A stretch of DNA of 64,000 nucleotides, from contig JAJEAA010000021.1 in NCBI GenBank assembly GCA_022824365.1, positions 1 to 64,000 on the forward strand, given 5' to 3'. Each line of letters starts with the position of its first letter. Positions within the stretch are counted from its first letter, which is position 1. The position numbers were made by a program, and so were the translations under genes. The notes beneath the pieces are model-generated. The model made no database searches. It saw nothing but the letters and a program-made list of their open reading frames with translations, and was not told the DNA's origin. Positions 54,187-60,700 of the stretch are shown here, one piece after another. This stretch comes from Anaerolineae bacterium. GTDB taxonomy: Bacteria; Chloroflexota; Anaerolineae; Aggregatilineales; Phototrophicaceae.

Positions 54187-55956
54187 ATGAAAAGACTCGC
54201 AGGCTTAATACTGACGCTCGTCCTGCTGCTGGCGCCGGCGGCGGACGCGCTCGATTACGACGCCAATAACTATCGCAAGACCATGATACAGATGCTGGGC
54301 TCAGCCTTTGACGCCTCCCGCGGACGCTTGATTGATGTGGCGGTCTTTGAGGCGGTTGCCGCTTCGGGCGATCCGCTCTACATCGCGCCGCTGATCGATA
54401 TCGCCTACTTCGCGCGCAGCGCCGAGCTTAGCCGGGGCGTCTTCGGCGCGCTGAGCGCTCTGACCGGCGAGGATACGGGCTGGCGGGAATACTTCGAATG
54501 GGCTGGCGCCAATGACATCGCCCTGCCGCCGCATTACGACGAATTCAAGGGCCAGCTCTTGGCCAACTTCGTCGATCCGGAATTCACGCGCTTCTTCCAA
54601 CCGGGCGTGATGGAGTCAGCCGCGATCAACATGGTGGAGCCGGTCTGGGGCGGCGTCACCGTCGACGGCATTCCCTCGCTGGTTAACGCGCGCCAGATCA
54701 GCCCGCAGGCGGCGGTTGAAGAAGGCCTCCAGTATCCGGATTTCTGCCGCGATGACGACTGCAGCTATCCAGCCGCCGATGAACTGGTCTTCGGCATCAG
54801 CTTCAATGGCGATAGCCGCGCCTACCCGCTGCGGCTCCTGAACTGGCACGAGATGTTCAACGATGTCATAGGCTTCGCGCCGCTCTATGACGCAGCGGAC
54901 GGCGAGCAAGTCTGCAACTTCCGGGCCCCCACGCCCTTCGAGGTGCGCGGCCGCCGGGGCGAAGACTGGCTGCTGATCTACGGACGCTCGGCTGATTGCC
55001 CGCGCTCGGGCTGGCTCCGCGCCGCCGATGTCGCTTGGCTTGACGACGAAAACGCGGACGCCCTGACCGAATTGCCCGATCTCGCCGCTGGCGACGAGGC
55101 GCTGAGCGTCGGCGTCACAGGCCAGGTTAGCGGTATGCCGGTGATGCTCGCCTATTGTACGCTCTGCGGCGCCGGCGTGCTCTATGACGTCAGCATCCCC
55201 GACCTCGCCTACACCGACCTGACCGGCGAACGCGTCGAGCTGGGCGACGCGGTGCTGGAATTTGGCTCGACCGGCATGCTCATGCGCTCGAACAAGCTGA
55301 TGTACGACCGCAACACCGACACCGTCTGGAACGCCATCACGGGCGAACCGGCCTTCGGTCCCCTGGCTGCCAGCGGCCTCGCGCTTGATGTGCTGCCGGT
55401 CGTTGTCACTGACTGGGAAAGCTGGCTGACCGCGCATCCGGATACCAGCGTGCTCAGCCTTGATACCGGCTTCTTGCGCAATTACAGCAACGGCGCCGCC
55501 TACAGCGACTACTTCAACAGCGCGGATCTGATGTTCCCCTCATGGCAGCAAGATACGGCTCTGATTCAGAACAAGGAGATGGTATTCGCCCTGCGCTTGC
55601 AGGGGCAAGCCAAAGCCTATCCGCTCGCGACAATTATCCCGGAGCGCGTCATCAATGACCGCGTCGGCGATGCCAATGTCGTCATCATCGCCGACGCCAG
55701 TCCCTCGCGCGACTTCTTCGAGCCCGGCGGCGCGGCGGTACGCGCCTACGACAGCGGCGACTTGACATTTGAAGCCGGCGCGGACGACGCCTCTTTGATC
55801 AGCGCTGACGGCCGGAGTTGGCAAATCACCGAAGCGGCTCTAATCAGCGAAGACAGCCAGCAACTCCCGCGCATCGGCGGGCATCTGGCTTTTTGGTTCG
55901 GCTGGTTCGGCTTCTATCCGGACACTTTGGTCTACGGCGCGGACGCTCAGCCCTAA
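54187..55956 (+). CDS. Secreted DUF3179 protein with internal SH3-like insert (copy 3)
   Basis: This protein has 589 aa from ATG 54187, chosen because GGAAGGGAAGG precedes it; an ATG seven codons upstream is possible. The signal peptide ends near ADALD. A helical N-terminal extension (about 25-155) precedes the DUF3179 domain (DGIPSLVNARQIS, RAYPLRLLNWHEMFND, VMLAYCTLCGAGVLYD, FGSTGMLMRSNKLMYD). Between the WHEMFND and CTLC segments an SH3-like insert (CNFRAPTPFEVRGRRGEDW, CPRSGWLRAADVAWL) is lodged. The Cys pair is conserved but reads CTLC rather than CPLC. It is predicted to be exported; role unknown. Confidence 0.87.
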   Translation: MKRLAGLILTLVLLLAPAADALDYDANNYRKTMIQMLGSAFDASRGRLIDVAVFEAVAASGDPLYIAPLIDIAYFARSAELSRGVFGALSALTGEDTGWREYFEWAGANDIALPPHYDEFKGQLLANFVDPEFTRFFQPGVMESAAINMVEPVWGGVTVDGIPSLVNARQISPQAAVEEGLQYPDFCRDDDCSYPAADELVFGISFNGDSRAYPLRLLNWHEMFNDVIGFAPLYDAADGEQVCNFRAPTPFEVRGRRGEDWLLIYGRSADCPRSGWLRAADVAWLDDENADALTELPDLAAGDEALSVGVTGQVSGMPVMLAYCTLCGAGVLYDVSIPDLAYTDLTGERVELGDAVLEFGSTGMLMRSNKLMYDRNTDTVWNAITGEPAFGPLAASGLALDVLPVVVTDWESWLTAHPDTSVLSLDTGFLRNYSNGAAYSDYFNSADLMFPSWQQDTALIQNKEMVFALRLQGQAKAYPLATIIPERVINDRVGDANVVIIADASPSRDFFEPGGAAVRAYDSGDLTFEAGADDASLISADGRSWQITEAALISEDSQQLPRIGGHLAFWFGWFGFYPDTLVYGADAQP

Positions 55957-56423
55957 CGCTGGCGTTTCGGTTTGCCTTTGCGCTTGCGTTTCTGCGCCGG
56001 CATCTGCAAGTCATAAGCTTGCGTCTTGTCCATTGGCGGCATCCAGCTTTCGTCGCCGCTGATCTTGGGTCCATATTCCAGGCGGTATAATGCCTCGCTC
56101 AGGTCCGATTGCCTGTCGACATCGCTGAGCAGGTTGCCGCGCACACTGCCCAAGCGCCGCCACCTGCGCTCCATTGCGGCCCGTGGCGATTGGCTGGGCG
56201 GGTAACTAACGGCCGCCGCGTCGGTCTCTTCTTCCGGCTGCTTCCACCGGTAGTGACCAAATGGCTTCACAAGATACAGCCCGAGCAAAGCGCCCGGAAA
56301 CGCCCAGAGCCATTCTGTGCCCTCGCCATATCGATCGCCGCCCAATTGCACAAAGACCCCAGCCATGAATAAGGCGAAGGCAATCGTCGCCAGCCCCTTC
56401 CAGTTCGGGCGTCTTGACTTCAT
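55953..56423 (-). CDS. Small membrane protein with basic tail, gene 4 of a four-gene cluster
   Basis: This protein has 156 aa. Two hydrophobic segments lie near residues 11-28 and 38-53, followed by a charged tail ending in KRKRKGKPKRQR. I do not recognise a family. The start shares one base with the stop of the upstream gene (TGATG), which indicates translational coupling. The stop overlaps the convergent DUF3179 stop. Confidence 0.75.
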   Translation of the reverse strand: MKSRRPNWKGLATIAFALFMAGVFVQLGGDRYGEGTEWLWAFPGALLGLYLVKPFGHYRWKQPEEETDAAAVSYPPSQSPRAAMERRWRRLGSVRGNLLSDVDRQSDLSEALYRLEYGPKISGDESWMPPMDKTQAYDLQMPAQKRKRKGKPKRQR

Positions 56424-56818
56424 CAGCTTTCCCGCCGCGCTCCTCGCTCGGTCCGGGCAGCGCTTCCTGATCGCTCAATCTTTTCGTCAAGGACTGGCCC
56501 GCCGAAAGAATCGCGATAAGCTTCGCGGACCAGATTCCGCCGCGCTGTCGTGATCAAGTTGTCGTCATGGATGCCGGCCGCTTCATATTCGAAAGCCGGT
56601 CCCGCCGCCCCGCTCGCCCGCCGGATGGCGATGATGATGCCGATACTCCCGCCCAATAACGCGCCGACGAATGCGCCCTCCGGCAAGCCCTCGGCCAGAA
56701 CGAAAGCGATGACCGCGCCGATGACCGCGCTCAAGACGGCGAAGGCGATCAGATGCAGCAGCGGCGCCGACTGACTCCCGATGGACTTGACTTGTGGCGC
56801 TGCGCTGCCCTTAGCCAT
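56423..56818 (-). CDS. Small membrane protein with Gly-zipper helices, gene 3 of the cluster
   Basis: This protein has 131 aa. Two TM helices (about 23-42 and 48-65) contain small-residue patterns (AFVGALLGGSIGIIIAI). A charged cytoplasmic tail follows. Family unknown. It is one base upstream-overlapped with gene 4 and separated from gene 2 by one base. Confidence 0.75.
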   Translation of the reverse strand: MAKGSAAPQVKSIGSQSAPLLHLIAFAVLSAVIGAVIAFVLAEGLPEGAFVGALLGGSIGIIIAIRRASGAAGPAFEYEAAGIHDDNLITTARRNLVREAYRDSFGGPVLDEKIERSGSAARTERGARRES

Positions 56819-56819
56819 A

Positions 56820-57128
56820 TCACTTGTTTCGCAGAAACTGTCTTCGATTCAATTCCAGTTCAGCTTTCCCCCTCAGTTTATCATGTTTGCCGCGCTCTCG
56901 GTCGCGGAGTTTCTTGAGTCCCGGCGGCCGCGATTGGCGCATGACGCTGCGCAAGCCGAAGAAAAGGCCGATGACCAGCCCGATGATAGCGCCCCCGGCC
57001 GCGCTTTGGAGGCTGACTTCGGCGGTGATTAACGCCGCAACTGCGCCGATGCCCGCGCCGAGCAGGGCGGATGTGGTGATCATGCGAAAATAATGTGATG
57101 TTCGTGATTCAGATGCGGCAGATCTCAT
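56820..57128 (-). CDS. Small membrane protein with Gly-zipper helices, gene 2 of the cluster
   Basis: This protein has 102 aa. Two TM segments (about 18-37 and 43-60; AAGGAIIGLVIGLFFG) precede a basic tail (LKKLRDRERGKHDKLRGK). The start at 57128 overlaps the upstream GIY-YIG gene by 20 bp; an internal ATG at 57083 would remove the overlap but lacks an RBS. Function unknown. Confidence 0.7.
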   Translation of the reverse strand: MRSAASESRTSHYFRMITTSALLGAGIGAVAALITAEVSLQSAAGGAIIGLVIGLFFGLRSVMRQSRPPGLKKLRDRERGKHDKLRGKAELELNRRQFLRNK

Positions 57129-57630
57129 GGACTTGCGCGTCGCTCAAATCAAACCATTCGCCGCGCTTGCGGCTGTCCGCGTAGCGCTGATGCAATTGCC
57201 ATTCCAGCGCCGGCGCGTCCGGCGTGTCGATAATGGCGACGATGTCCGACTCGCCCGGCAATACAGTGCGAATCTCATGCAGACGCCGGGCGGGATTGTT
57301 CGTTCTGCCGATCTTGTAACGCTTGCTGAATTCTGTGTCCTGAATCACGTATACGTAGCCGGCGGGATGCGTCAAGGTTGGCAAGTCGACTGGATCGCCG
57401 AAATCGCAGCGAGGCGGTCGGGTATAAATGTAGACGAAGAAAATCATGACACACAGCGACAGACCCAAGCCAGCGCCAGCGCCGTATAGCGGGTTCTTAT
57501 TGAGGCTGAAGGCGACAACAGCGCCGACCCCCGCGCCAACGCAAACTGCGACAGCGGCTTGCAAGCCGATGAAGATTGCGGTTAATCCGACGGCGATTGC
57601 CAAGACGCTCAAGATCAACAATCGCGGCAT
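57109..57630 (-). CDS. Membrane-anchored GIY-YIG/T5orf172-like protein, gene 1 of the cluster
   Basis: This protein has 173 aa. Two or three N-terminal hydrophobic segments (about 3-70) are followed by a domain starting at residue 90: GYVYVIQDTEFSKRYKIGRT, NPARRLHEIRTVLPGE and ALEWQLHQRYADSRKRGEWF. This matches the T5orf172/Mug113 branch of GIY-YIG domains, including YKIGRT and the Arg/Glu/His positions. Fusion to a membrane anchor is unusual for a nuclease domain. The role is unknown; nuclease activity is uncertain. Confidence 0.8.
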   Translation of the reverse strand: MPRLLILSVLAIAVGLTAIFIGLQAAVAVCVGAGVGAVVAFSLNKNPLYGAGAGLGLSLCVMIFFVYIYTRPPRCDFGDPVDLPTLTHPAGYVYVIQDTEFSKRYKIGRTNNPARRLHEIRTVLPGESDIVAIIDTPDAPALEWQLHQRYADSRKRGEWFDLSDAQVHEICRI

Positions 57631-57677: not shown

Positions 57678-58418
57678 TTAGGTTTGCCGCCGCGCGAAAA
57701 AAGCCTGCATGATTCCCCGTACCTCATCCGAGACCAAGCGCTGGCCGATCATGTCAAGTTCCAGCGCCATCGTCTCCTCGACCGTCTTTGCAGTCCCCCG
57801 ACGCAAGAGCATCTTCGTCTGACGCAGCGCCTCCGGTGGCTTGGCCGCCAATTCCTCCGCCTTCGCTTGCGCCAGCGCTTCCAATTCTTCCGCCGCCGCC
57901 ACTTGATTCACGATCCCGCAGGCCCGCGCTTTCTCGGCTGTGAAGACCTCGCCCAGCATCAGCAACTCAGCTGCCCGACTGTAGCCCATCATCCGCGGCA
58001 GCAGATAAGTCGAGCCCGCTTCCGGCAGCAAACCGAGGTCGATAAAAGCGAACTTGAACTTGACGCCCGGCGCCGCGTAAACCAGGTCGCAATGCAGCAG
58101 CATCGTCACGCCGACCCCCACCGCCACCCCATTGACCGCCGCCACGATAGGCGCTTCAGCCATCGCGATCGCCTTGATGAAGCGCGCCGCCGACTCCGAA
58201 CCGGGCTCTTTTAAGAAGCTGTTCAGGTCGTTGCCGGCGCAGAAGCTGTCGCCGCTGCCGGTGATCGTGATGACGCGGATGTCCCTGTCCTCATTGCCGC
58301 GCTCGATCGCTTCCCGCAGCGCGTCGTACATAGCCGGCGTCAACGCGTTCTTCTTCTCCGGCCGGTTGAGTTGGATACGCAGGATGTGGTTGGAGAGTGT
58401 GGTGGTGATGTTGATCAT
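57678..58418 (-). CDS. Enoyl-CoA hydratase/isomerase (crotonase family)
   Basis: This protein has 246 aa from ATG 58418, with AGGAA eight bases upstream; a longer frame (58460) has no support. The oxyanion-hole segments are GDSFCAGNDLNSF and NGVAVGVGVTMLLHCDLVYA. The position where hydratases carry their second catalytic Glu lies in GLLPEAGSTYLLPRMMG. The motifs PEKKNALTP and KFAFIDLGL are family-typical. It probably acts on a fatty or branched acyl-CoA; exact substrate unknown. Same strand and 28 bp from the SSB-Gre gene. Confidence 0.92.
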   Translation of the reverse strand: MINITTTLSNHILRIQLNRPEKKNALTPAMYDALREAIERGNEDRDIRVITITGSGDSFCAGNDLNSFLKEPGSESAARFIKAIAMAEAPIVAAVNGVAVGVGVTMLLHCDLVYAAPGVKFKFAFIDLGLLPEAGSTYLLPRMMGYSRAAELLMLGEVFTAEKARACGIVNQVAAAEELEALAQAKAEELAAKPPEALRQTKMLLRRGTAKTVEETMALELDMIGQRLVSDEVRGIMQAFFARRQT

Positions 58419-58446: not shown

Positions 58447-59427
58447 TTAATGAACGTCAACCACTCGGAGTTTTACATTACCATTTGGCGTTTGCACTCT
58501 GACTTTGTCGCCTTTTTGCTTGCCCAATAAAGCAGCACCAGTTGGACTATTTGCGGAGATTGTACTTTCTGAACGTTTCGACAGAGGCGTGCTTACAATG
58601 GTGTAGCCCTCGTCTTTGTTGCTGTAATCGTATCGAATGATAACTGTGGAACCGATTTGGATGATATGGTTTGCTTTCTTTGTCCGTGAGTTTAGTACGC
58701 TTGCCAAAGCTTGTTCGTAGAATTGAATTCTATCTTCAACTGCGATCAGTTGTTCCTTCGTATCATGGTAGTCTGCATTCTTGCTTTTCTTGCCACCGCG
58801 ATATGTGACGTTGCGCATTAGACGAGTTAGCTGGCCTTGTTTGTTTCTCAGCACTCCTAATTCTGCGCGAATTTGTTTTACTTCCAGTCTCTGATTTGCT
58901 TGAATTGTACTGTTGCCAGCCTTGTCAGTCTTTGATGCGTGGCCTTGGTTCCGGGGTTTGCGCTTGGCTGCTTTAGTTGCAACTCTGCGGTTGCTTTGTG
59001 TGGCGACCGGTCTTTTTATCACGTGTTGAGCCGGGCGTGTCGACACGTTCTTGATTTGTTCGGTGTTTGAATGTTTCCGCTCTCGTCGGTCGCGTCCACC
59101 AATTTCGATGAAAATCACATCATGCGCGGTCAAGTTGAGCGACGCTTTCAACTGACCGTTGTTGCTGATGTAAGCCTCGGCGCTTACATTCCCGGTTACC
59201 TTTACTTTGCGTCCCTTTGAGAGATTTGTCTTGCAATTCCTGGCTCGCTCGCCCCAAGCGGTTACGCGATACCAGGTTGTCTTTTCTCGCCGAATACCCG
59301 TTTGCCGGTCGTACCAACGGTCGTTCACTGCAACACTGAAGTTGCAGACTGCCTTTCCTTGTGAAGTGTGGTTCAATGTCGGATCAGCGCCGATATGACC
59401 AATTACAGTAGTTTGATGCCAAGACAT
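58447..59427 (-). CDS. SSB-GreA fusion protein with basic Gre tip
   Basis: This protein has 326 aa with a strong TAGGAGGG RBS. Residues 1-109 form a single-stranded-DNA-binding OB fold (MSWHQTTVIGHIGADP, TTWYRVTAWGERARN, GRKVKVTGNVSAEAY). Residues 110-185 are a Lys/Arg-rich linker. Residues 186-247 form a Gre coiled-coil domain (GKKSKNADYHDTKEQL). Residues 252-326 form the Gre C-terminal FKBP-like domain (IGSTVIIRYDY, SANSPTGAALLGKQKGDKV). The two acidic tip residues that GreA uses for RNA cleavage (D41 and E44 in E. coli) are Lys213 and Lys216 here. The SSB acidic tail is also absent. The gene is AT-richer than its neighbours, suggesting acquisition. Role inferred: DNA-linked RNA polymerase secondary-channel binding without cleavage. 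Confidence 0.88.
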   Translation of the reverse strand: MSWHQTTVIGHIGADPTLNHTSQGKAVCNFSVAVNDRWYDRQTGIRREKTTWYRVTAWGERARNCKTNLSKGRKVKVTGNVSAEAYISNNGQLKASLNLTAHDVIFIEIGGRDRRERKHSNTEQIKNVSTRPAQHVIKRPVATQSNRRVATKAAKRKPRNQGHASKTDKAGNSTIQANQRLEVKQIRAELGVLRNKQGQLTRLMRNVTYRGGKKSKNADYHDTKEQLIAVEDRIQFYEQALASVLNSRTKKANHIIQIGSTVIIRYDYSNKDEGYTIVSTPLSKRSESTISANSPTGAALLGKQKGDKVRVQTPNGNVKLRVVDVH

Positions 59428-59436
59428 TATACCCTC

Positions 59437-59458
59437 CTAAAGTTATGTACAACTTTAG
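59437..59458. promoter_or_regulatory. Palindromic operator-like site upstream of the SSB-Gre gene
   Basis: CTAAAGTT (59437-59444) and AACTTTAG (59451-59458) are a perfect 8-bp inverted repeat separated by ATGTAC. The inner arm touches the ribosome-binding site, so a bound repressor or the RNA hairpin could block expression. It may be autoregulated, but this is inference. Confidence 0.55.
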
Positions 59459-59503
59459 TTTAGGCACATGACATTGGCTGTAGCACCCCAACATTTAGGG
59501 GTT

Positions 59504-60700
59504 TCACACCTCCCCCAACAACTCAAACACCCGCGCCAGCCGCTGATCATAACGATGATGCGCCAAGACATGCGCCCGCCCCGCCGCCGCAATCCGCCCC
59601 CGCTCCTCATCATGCGCCAGGTAATAACGCGCCTTCTCCCGCAAATCCTCGAGATCGCTGAACGTGACCAGGTGCTCGCCGTCAACGAACCACTCATGTA
59701 CGCCCGGCCTGTCATCCACCAACTGAAACGTCCCCAAGCCCGCGCATTCAAACAGGCGCATATTCCCGCCGTAACGCATGAAATCGCCGTGAACGTTGAC
59801 GCTGATCTTCACCGACGACAAGATCTGCAGCATCCGCTCGCCCAGCGCCGATCCCCGATAATATGGCTGCAAACTCGCCGGAACCTCGTGCACGCTCCAG
59901 ACGCCCAGGTCAAACTCCCCCAGGCTCGTCAGCGCCGCTACCCGCTCGCTGTACAAATTGTCCGGCGTCAAAGTGCCGACGAACCCGATATCGCAGAGGG
60001 TGGCGTCGGGCGCATCGCTAATCGGCTGAGGATAATGCAGTTCAGGATCCACGCCGACGCCCGGCAAGCACTCAACCCGCGGCGCGCCCAATTCTCGCCA
60101 CTGCATGCCGTGATAATAATCGTTGACCAGCACCAGATCGTACAAAGGCGCGGCAATGCGCTCGATGGCATGGGAAAACACGATTGGCGAATCGCCGTTG
60201 CTGTATACAATCTTGCAGTCATGCTCGTCTTTGAGGCGCGCCAAAGTCGCCGGCAAGATCTCGCGGTTGCCGCCGGAGTGCCAGATAATGTCGGGTTGGA
60301 AGCGAGCCGCCTGCGCCAGCAACAGTTGATTGCGGCGCCGCAGGTCGGGGTTGAGCTGTGGCGGAAAGCGGCGAATCAAGGCGGCGGCGATCTTGCCCGG
60401 ACTCAGCCCGCTGCGATACACGCTGCTGCGCAAGCGGCTGATATCCCTGGCGCCAAACCCCGGCAAGTTCCGCCAGAAAACCTCCAGCTTGCAACCAGCT
60501 CCCCGCATCGCCCGCGCCCAAGCGTACTGAGCCATGCTGCGCGGGAAAAGCGGAACCGAACTCCCGGGCGAACTTCGTCGAATCTCAGCCTGCAATTCCT
60601 CAGGATGATACAGCGACTCGACGATCAGGACGCGCGGCCCATCCTCAGGTCTACGAGCCGACCGCTGTTCAGTCGGAGTCACTTCATTATCAAACCGCAT
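59504..60700 (-). CDS. Glycosyltransferase, CgeB-like (GT-B fold)
   Basis: This protein has 398 aa. The N-terminal half contains VLIVESLYHPEE, QYAWARAMRGAGCKLEVFWR and IWHSGGNREILP. The C-terminal half has DIGFVGTLTPDNLYSERVAA, SVNVHGDFMRYGGNMRLFE and CAGLGTFQLVDDRPGVHEWF, typical of the CgeB/DUF3880-related glycosyltransferases. Donor and acceptor are unknown. The gene lies 26 bp downstream of the E2 gene and may be read through from that operon. Confidence 0.85.
   Translation of the reverse strand: MRFDNEVTPTEQRSARRPEDGPRVLIVESLYHPEELQAEIRRSSPGSSVPLFPRSMAQYAWARAMRGAGCKLEVFWRNLPGFGARDISRLRSSVYRSGLSPGKIAAALIRRFPPQLNPDLRRRNQLLLAQAARFQPDIIWHSGGNREILPATLARLKDEHDCKIVYSNGDSPIVFSHAIERIAAPLYDLVLVNDYYHGMQWRELGAPRVECLPGVGVDPELHYPQPISDAPDATLCDIGFVGTLTPDNLYSERVAALTSLGEFDLGVWSVHEVPASLQPYYRGSALGERMLQILSSVKISVNVHGDFMRYGGNMRLFECAGLGTFQLVDDRPGVHEWFVDGEHLVTFSDLEDLREKARYYLAHDEERGRIAAAGRAHVLAHHRYDQRLARVFELLGEV

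Follow-up and report, generated by a model that had tools for sequence, protein, structure and literature searches.

A lysine-tipped SSB–Gre fusion at a variable chromosomal site in an Anaerolineae bacterium: a candidate Gre-derived inhibitor of RNA polymerase

The transcript-cleavage factors GreB and TFIIS place a pair of acidic residues in the active site of RNA polymerase, where the pair holds the second magnesium ion needed for RNA cleavage (as described in parts of PMC5715097 and PMC7527559). A tip-dead variant of GreA, D41A E44Y, is toxic on overproduction (PMC7527559, in the same part). In archaea, the Sulfolobus protein TFS4 requires three tip lysines to inhibit both initiation and elongation, and the portion of PMC5715097 cited here further describes its inhibition as transferable by a tip swap, as working with arginines also and as rising with the number of lysines, and its synthesis as induced by virus infection. 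The structure of the TFS4 complex, as given in part of PMC8448823, shows it acting allosterically from a position in the funnel; its lysines lie exposed, contact no part of the polymerase and are thought to help entry only. On the bacterial side, the Gre-like proteins Gfh1 of Thermus and Rv3788 are inhibitors that use the Gre fold for inhibition, not cleavage, while retaining acidic residues at the tip (from a portion of PMC4598747). Lysine-tipped inhibition is thus already known from TFS4 and inhibition by a Gre fold from Gfh1. Among the matches listed in a search of the open-access literature, we found no description of an SSB–Gre fusion or of a lysine-tipped Gre protein, and what we report here that is new, as far as searched, is the pairing of SSB and Gre domains and the swapping of N-terminal parts at a single site.

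The window analysed here is a stretch of 64,000 nucleotides, positions 1 to 64,000 of contig JAJEAA010000021.1 (assembly GCA_022824365.1), from an Anaerolineae bacterium. On its minus strand, positions 58447..59427 encode a protein of 326 residues in one uninterrupted reading frame, and our searches bear out an earlier note on this DNA that had read the frame as an SSB domain, a basic linker and a Gre part. The SSB OB-fold domain (residues 5–106; 59110..59415, minus strand) matches PF00436 at E 5.8e-24, with 84.6 bits against a Pfam cut-off of 26, and the protein also passes the NCBIfam ssb model TIGR00621 (90.4 against a cut-off of 53.95). Residues W38, W52, W58 and Y86 of this half match the seven genus SSB rows aligned; by their E. 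coli SSB equivalents, we take these to be the aromatics that contact single-stranded DNA (ssDNA). The linker (residues 109–180; 58888..59103, minus strand) has 19 K/R against 4 D/E in its 72 residues, and is of low confidence and disordered in the full-length predicted model; the second half of this linker, starting near residue 155 (KPRNxGHxxKT), is common to the fusion and to a protein of the related genome G385, discussed below. The Gre C-terminal domain (residues 254–326; 58450..58668, minus strand) matches PF01272 at E 2.9e-17 (62.9 bits against a cut-off of 26.9), a significant match of the kind whose absence the note had said would overturn its reading. The Gre-type coiled coil (predicted helices 170–210 and 218–246; 58690..58920, minus strand) is less clear in Pfam, with a PF03449 match over residues 210–243 (E 4.6e-4) whose 20.8 bits fall slightly below the cut-off of 24.5. 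We nevertheless count it as present on the basis of two long model helices and the matches to GreA and Gfh1, so that the claim of both Gre domains stands firmly for the C-domain, and for the N-domain through the NCBIfam hits and the model. The NCBIfam GreA models cover residues 183–326 with a best E of 2.4e-23, all below their family cut-offs (TIGR01462, 78.3 bits against 139). Sequence matches in the PDB divide in the same manner, with SSBs matching the first half and E. coli GreA (1grj, 1.7e-11) and Gfh1 the second. Pfam searches at E up to 10 returned SSB and Gre alone and no zinc ribbon, and no acidic C-terminal tail motif of the DDIPF type occurs anywhere in the fusion.

The Gre and SSB halves were aligned separately. 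For the structure of the Gre C-domain the Gre-half model was used, since the full-length model, whose alignment consists of SSB rows only, has low confidence in that domain. The predicted Gre-half model has two long helices flanking the tip and matches structures of GreA, GreB and Gfh1, and its C-domain matches 2pn0 with an rmsd of 2.2 over 74 residues. Foldseek TM-scores for the whole Gre half are low (0.37–0.41 in the best ten rows), and the model has a pTM of 0.45, with the relative placement of the two Gre subdomains uncertain. In prediction, then, the C-terminal half keeps a Gre fold.

The tip of the coiled coil reads R210-G-G-K213-K214-S-K216-N-A-D-Y, with residues K213, K214, S215 and K216 (58780..58791, minus strand) replacing the acidic pair of GreA. 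In agreement with the earlier note, K213 and K216 align with the acidic D and E of the GreA tip, and counting back from N-A-D-Y puts them at the positions of D41 and E44 in the E. coli protein (numbering from the part of PMC7527559 cited above), with K214 as a third lysine. Given the replacement of both acidic residues by lysines, the sequence supports the same note's view that classical stimulation of cleavage would not be expected. Lysine at both positions is found in all three Gre halves borne at this site among the 32 rows of our alignment, and D plus E in the other 29 of 29, which are part of the Gre genes found in the genome searches; a distant Gre paralogue outside the alignment has the tip EDDQGEEA, likewise without lysines. 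The third of the site-borne tips, that of genome G367, reads SKVKKN. Between the source genome (G000) and G385, residues 204–236, a stretch picked post hoc from the alignment already in view, are identical at 32 of 33 positions despite 11 silent codon differences (Fisher p 3.4e-7). The corresponding dN/dS is 0.011 in this stretch, 0.25 in the whole Gre part and 0.47 in the linker stretch, as estimated by a simple counting method with dS close to saturation. The tip is thus under very strong purifying selection, and its lysines are maintained.

Set against the described systems, the fusion shares with GreA and GreB the C-domain, the coiled coil and the N-A-(D/E)-Y that follows the tip, but differs in having lysines where they have D and E, in its attached SSB domain and in scoring below the NCBIfam GreA cut-offs. 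With the inhibitors Gfh1 and Rv3788 it would share the use of a Gre fold for inhibition (it has a fold match to Gfh1), and it differs from them in having lysines where they keep acidic tip residues. With TFS4 it shares, by analogy only, the change of a secondary-channel cleavage factor's acidic tip to lysines (here K213, K214 and K216), and it too is a lineage-specific paralogue alongside a normal copy; TFS4, however, is a zinc-ribbon protein of the TFIIS type, with another fold and without an ssDNA-binding domain. The two proteins are unrelated and their likeness is convergent. Since the TFS4 lysines touch no part of the polymerase, the parallel is a loose one, lying in function and charge and not in detail. 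With bacterial SSBs the fusion has the OB domain and the aromatic contact positions in common, whereas it carries the Gre half in place of their DDIPF-type tail.

The normal copies are all present in the source genome, which has an SSB ending in DDIPF (58% identity with the SSB half), a GreA with the tip GDLKEN (35% identity with the Gre half) and the more distant Gre paralogue already mentioned (L011; 26% identity with the Gre half). The main SSBs of the individual genus genomes are 56–64% identical to the SSB half, which in a tree groups beside 30 genus SSBs (support 99/95 for the 31 rows), and its dN/dS against the genome's own ssb is 0.26, a value that mixes both branches.

Among 98 genomes of the family (34 of the genus, the source genome included), G385 has a close relative of the Gre half (61% identity over 191 residues) and G367 a more distant one (36%). 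The fusion lies after a glycosyltransferase gene (59504..60700, minus strand) and before an enoyl-CoA hydratase-like gene (57678..58418, minus strand), both named by general look, and G385 and G367 also carry their Gre halves at this site. At the G385 locus (L001) the neighbours are the same and the Gre half has a different N-terminus, the first 120-odd residues of which match no Pfam family. This N-terminal part is encoded at L001 5638-6040 and starts MIKFIRKILGIGVKARKPR. Among the 98 family genomes its relatives are G367 only (41% over 101 residues), plus a doubtful match in G333 (E 0.006) that has stops. The G367 frame has 410 residues (393 from the first ATG) and contains DnaJ_C (9.8e-32), Gre N (2.4e-5) and Gre C (5.7e-22) domains. 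G385 and G367 have leader DNA and the first 20 residues in common (19 identical), and on this ground we favour a common ancestor gene for the two. In the tree the Gre half of G000 pairs with that of G385 (support 100/100). A single clade of all three is not rejected, with a p-AU of 0.41 when the tip columns are kept; with those columns removed, G367 falls among genus GreA rows, yet the one-clade p-AU is 0.30. The lysines of G367 may have arisen separately or may share an origin with those of the other two.

A profile built from the three Gre halves gave no fourth member of like score in 396 genomes of the class: the three score 249–271 bits, by construction, and the next match 158. Among the matches listed from 301 phylum genomes, none besides the window's own spans both halves. 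A short-peptide scan of species genomes, which reaches close relatives only, returned 7 loci, none of them matching both halves; one, identified by its contig coordinates as the G385 locus, matches the linker and Gre part. The SSB–Gre fusion was therefore found in one genome only and the lysine-tipped Gre half in three, and the SSB–Gre combination itself is not conserved as a device; like Gre halves with other N-termini occur in G385 and G367.

The site can be read past the glycosyltransferase gene in 28 of the 34 genus genomes; in the other six, contigs end (G363, G364, G380) or there is no close glycosyltransferase match (G370, G371, G392). Lysine-tipped Gre proteins occupy it in 3 of these 28 and a MUG113/T5orf172 protein, Pfam-confirmed in each case, in 16, while 3 have other small genes (G374; G381, whose contig ends shortly after; G391), 2 have short gaps (G387, 161 nt; G369, 362 nt) and 4 a different neighbourhood (G361, G389, G378, G362). 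In some of the 16 T5orf172 genomes (G375, G384) no enoyl-CoA hydratase gene was found within the sequence retrieved. Judged by the flanking gene, the nearest relative is G376 (93%); a T5orf172 protein occupies its site, so the content there changes fast. Several other observations were made in this neighbourhood and genus. In G391 a DndB-family gene (L120 3847-5055; PF14072, 5.4e-35) directly follows the same glycosyltransferase gene. In the window itself, positions 57109-57630 (minus strand) encode a 173-residue protein with a hydrophobic N-terminus and a T5orf172/MUG113 domain (1e-15), which resembles the fusion-site proteins of the 16 relatives but lies beyond the enoyl-CoA hydratase gene; three small open reading frames of 156, 131 and 102 residues with glycine-rich hydrophobic stretches at 55953-57128 (minus strand) gave nothing above Pfam cut-offs. 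Elsewhere in the genus, DnaJ proteins of G366 (L184) and G380 (L185) have a later half of GGAI-type repeats, beta-helix-like by eye, and are more chimeras of housekeeping genes; a DnaJ-like protein of G363 (L186) continues, also by eye, into a hydrophobic stretch, a Thr/Ser-rich repeat run and a further C-terminal part.

The fusion gene is AT-rich, as had been noted (GC 0.475, against 0.594 for the window and 0.61 and 0.62 for the two adjoining genes), but the suggestion that it was acquired is not borne out. Low GC is common at the site (0.44–0.56 for the site genes of the 16 T5orf172 genomes) and the SSB half groups beside SSBs of the genus. Moreover, dS between G000 and G385, by the same near-saturated counting, is 1.20 for the Gre part, 1.09 for the glycosyltransferase gene and 0.77 for the enoyl-CoA hydratase gene, from which the Gre half appears to be about as old as the G000/G385 split; a recent acquisition from outside is thus unsupported. 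An origin from close, sampled phages or plasmids was likewise set aside: among 1524 phage records that match at all, none reaches 80% coverage of the fusion, two scans of viral contigs gave no relative, and the 55 plasmid records matched by the Gre half reach 29–36% identity in the best 15. Immediately upstream of the ribosome-binding site lies an inverted repeat, CTAAAGTT-6-AACTTTAG (59437..59458; 8-base arms, 6-base gap), which could fold over that site in RNA. The palindrome called operator-like in the earlier note therefore exists, but we reject it as a regulon operator since the genome has no second copy at two or fewer mismatches. A hairpin, CCCCTAAATGTTGGGG, 3' of the glycosyltransferase stop (59486..59501, minus strand) is a probable terminator. 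It was also considered as a recombination mark, an idea dropped because the genome has 11 instances of its pattern, CCCCnAAnnnTTGGGG (this one and 10 more), against none of a control pattern; a terminator family is the likelier explanation.

How should such a protein be understood? The best reading of a Gre coil that carries three lysines and hardly changes as the other parts drift is that it is directed at the polymerase, with a tip that matters but does not cleave. We tentatively suggest, as a serious possibility still short of probable, that the fusion is a Gre-derived inhibitor of RNA polymerase with a recruitment domain. According to this proposal, the Gre C-domain would dock on the polymerase as GreA does and the coiled coil would enter the secondary channel, where the tip lysines could not hold the second magnesium ion, leaving RNA cleavage unstimulated, and might instead block catalysis or exclude GreA. 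The SSB domain, on its long basic tether, would bind ssDNA and so direct the block to polymerases close to exposed single strands, candidates being replicating or damaged DNA, R-loops and incoming phage or plasmid DNA. On this view the N-terminal domain would serve as an address, for ssDNA in G000, for chaperone clients in G367 and of unknown kind in G385. Weighing against the proposal are the sub-cut-off PF03449 match, the small number of genomes involved and the lack in the SSB half of the acidic tail with which normal SSBs recruit partners. The Gre half might instead dock on the polymerase only to tether an ssDNA-binding domain there, which would shield the non-template strand or R-loops or help in repair, with lysines that do nothing more than disable cleavage. 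Both halves do appear intact, but an inert tip need not be the most conserved part of the protein and the siblings in G385 and G367 have no SSB domain, and we consider this role unlikely.

The fast turnover of the site, mostly among T5orf172 (GIY-YIG-like) proteins, raises the different prospect that the Gre half acts off the polymerase and that the protein, with its basic linker, is a nucleic-acid-binding product of a variable locus, perhaps an effector in defence or conflict like its T5orf172 counterparts. Some of the latter match candidate defence models in PADLOC weakly and in part, but no model matches the three Gre proteins (with a threshold of E 1 for the fusion and its G385 relative and of E 0.01 for the one in G367), and the Gre C-domain and tip are still constrained; a defence role is possible, though this account of it seems to us improbable. 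That the fusion occurs in one genome, in a genus with other DnaJ chimeras, and that its linker drifts fast could also suggest a functionless, short-lived chimera of duplicated and fused genus ssb and greA genes. The open frames in all three genomes and the dN/dS values of the Gre part and, with its mixture of branches, the SSB half speak against such decay, making it more doubtful still. Finally, the earlier note had raised an assembly error joining two genes. The assembly has 37 contigs and a single copy of the fusion, but neither half duplicates another gene of the genome, at the same site in G385 the Gre half and a portion of the linker continue the frame of coding sequence upstream, and G367 shows that fusions recur there; such an error is very unlikely.

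If the inhibitor reading is right, swapping the tip charges would be a simple way to test what decides between cleavage and inhibition by a secondary-channel factor. A broader extension, which we regard as somewhat unlikely as it stands, is that bacteria possess a class of GreA-derived, lysine-tipped Gre proteins that would shut off RNA polymerase, with an exchangeable N-terminal domain, a fast-changing genomic site, a convergent counterpart in TFS4 and possibly a part in resisting phages or plasmids. If true, bacteria, like archaea, would have made a polymerase blocker from a transcript-cleavage factor through a charge reversal at the tip, the blocker would be addressed by exchange of its N-terminal domain, and exposed single-stranded DNA would be linked to the shut-off of transcription.
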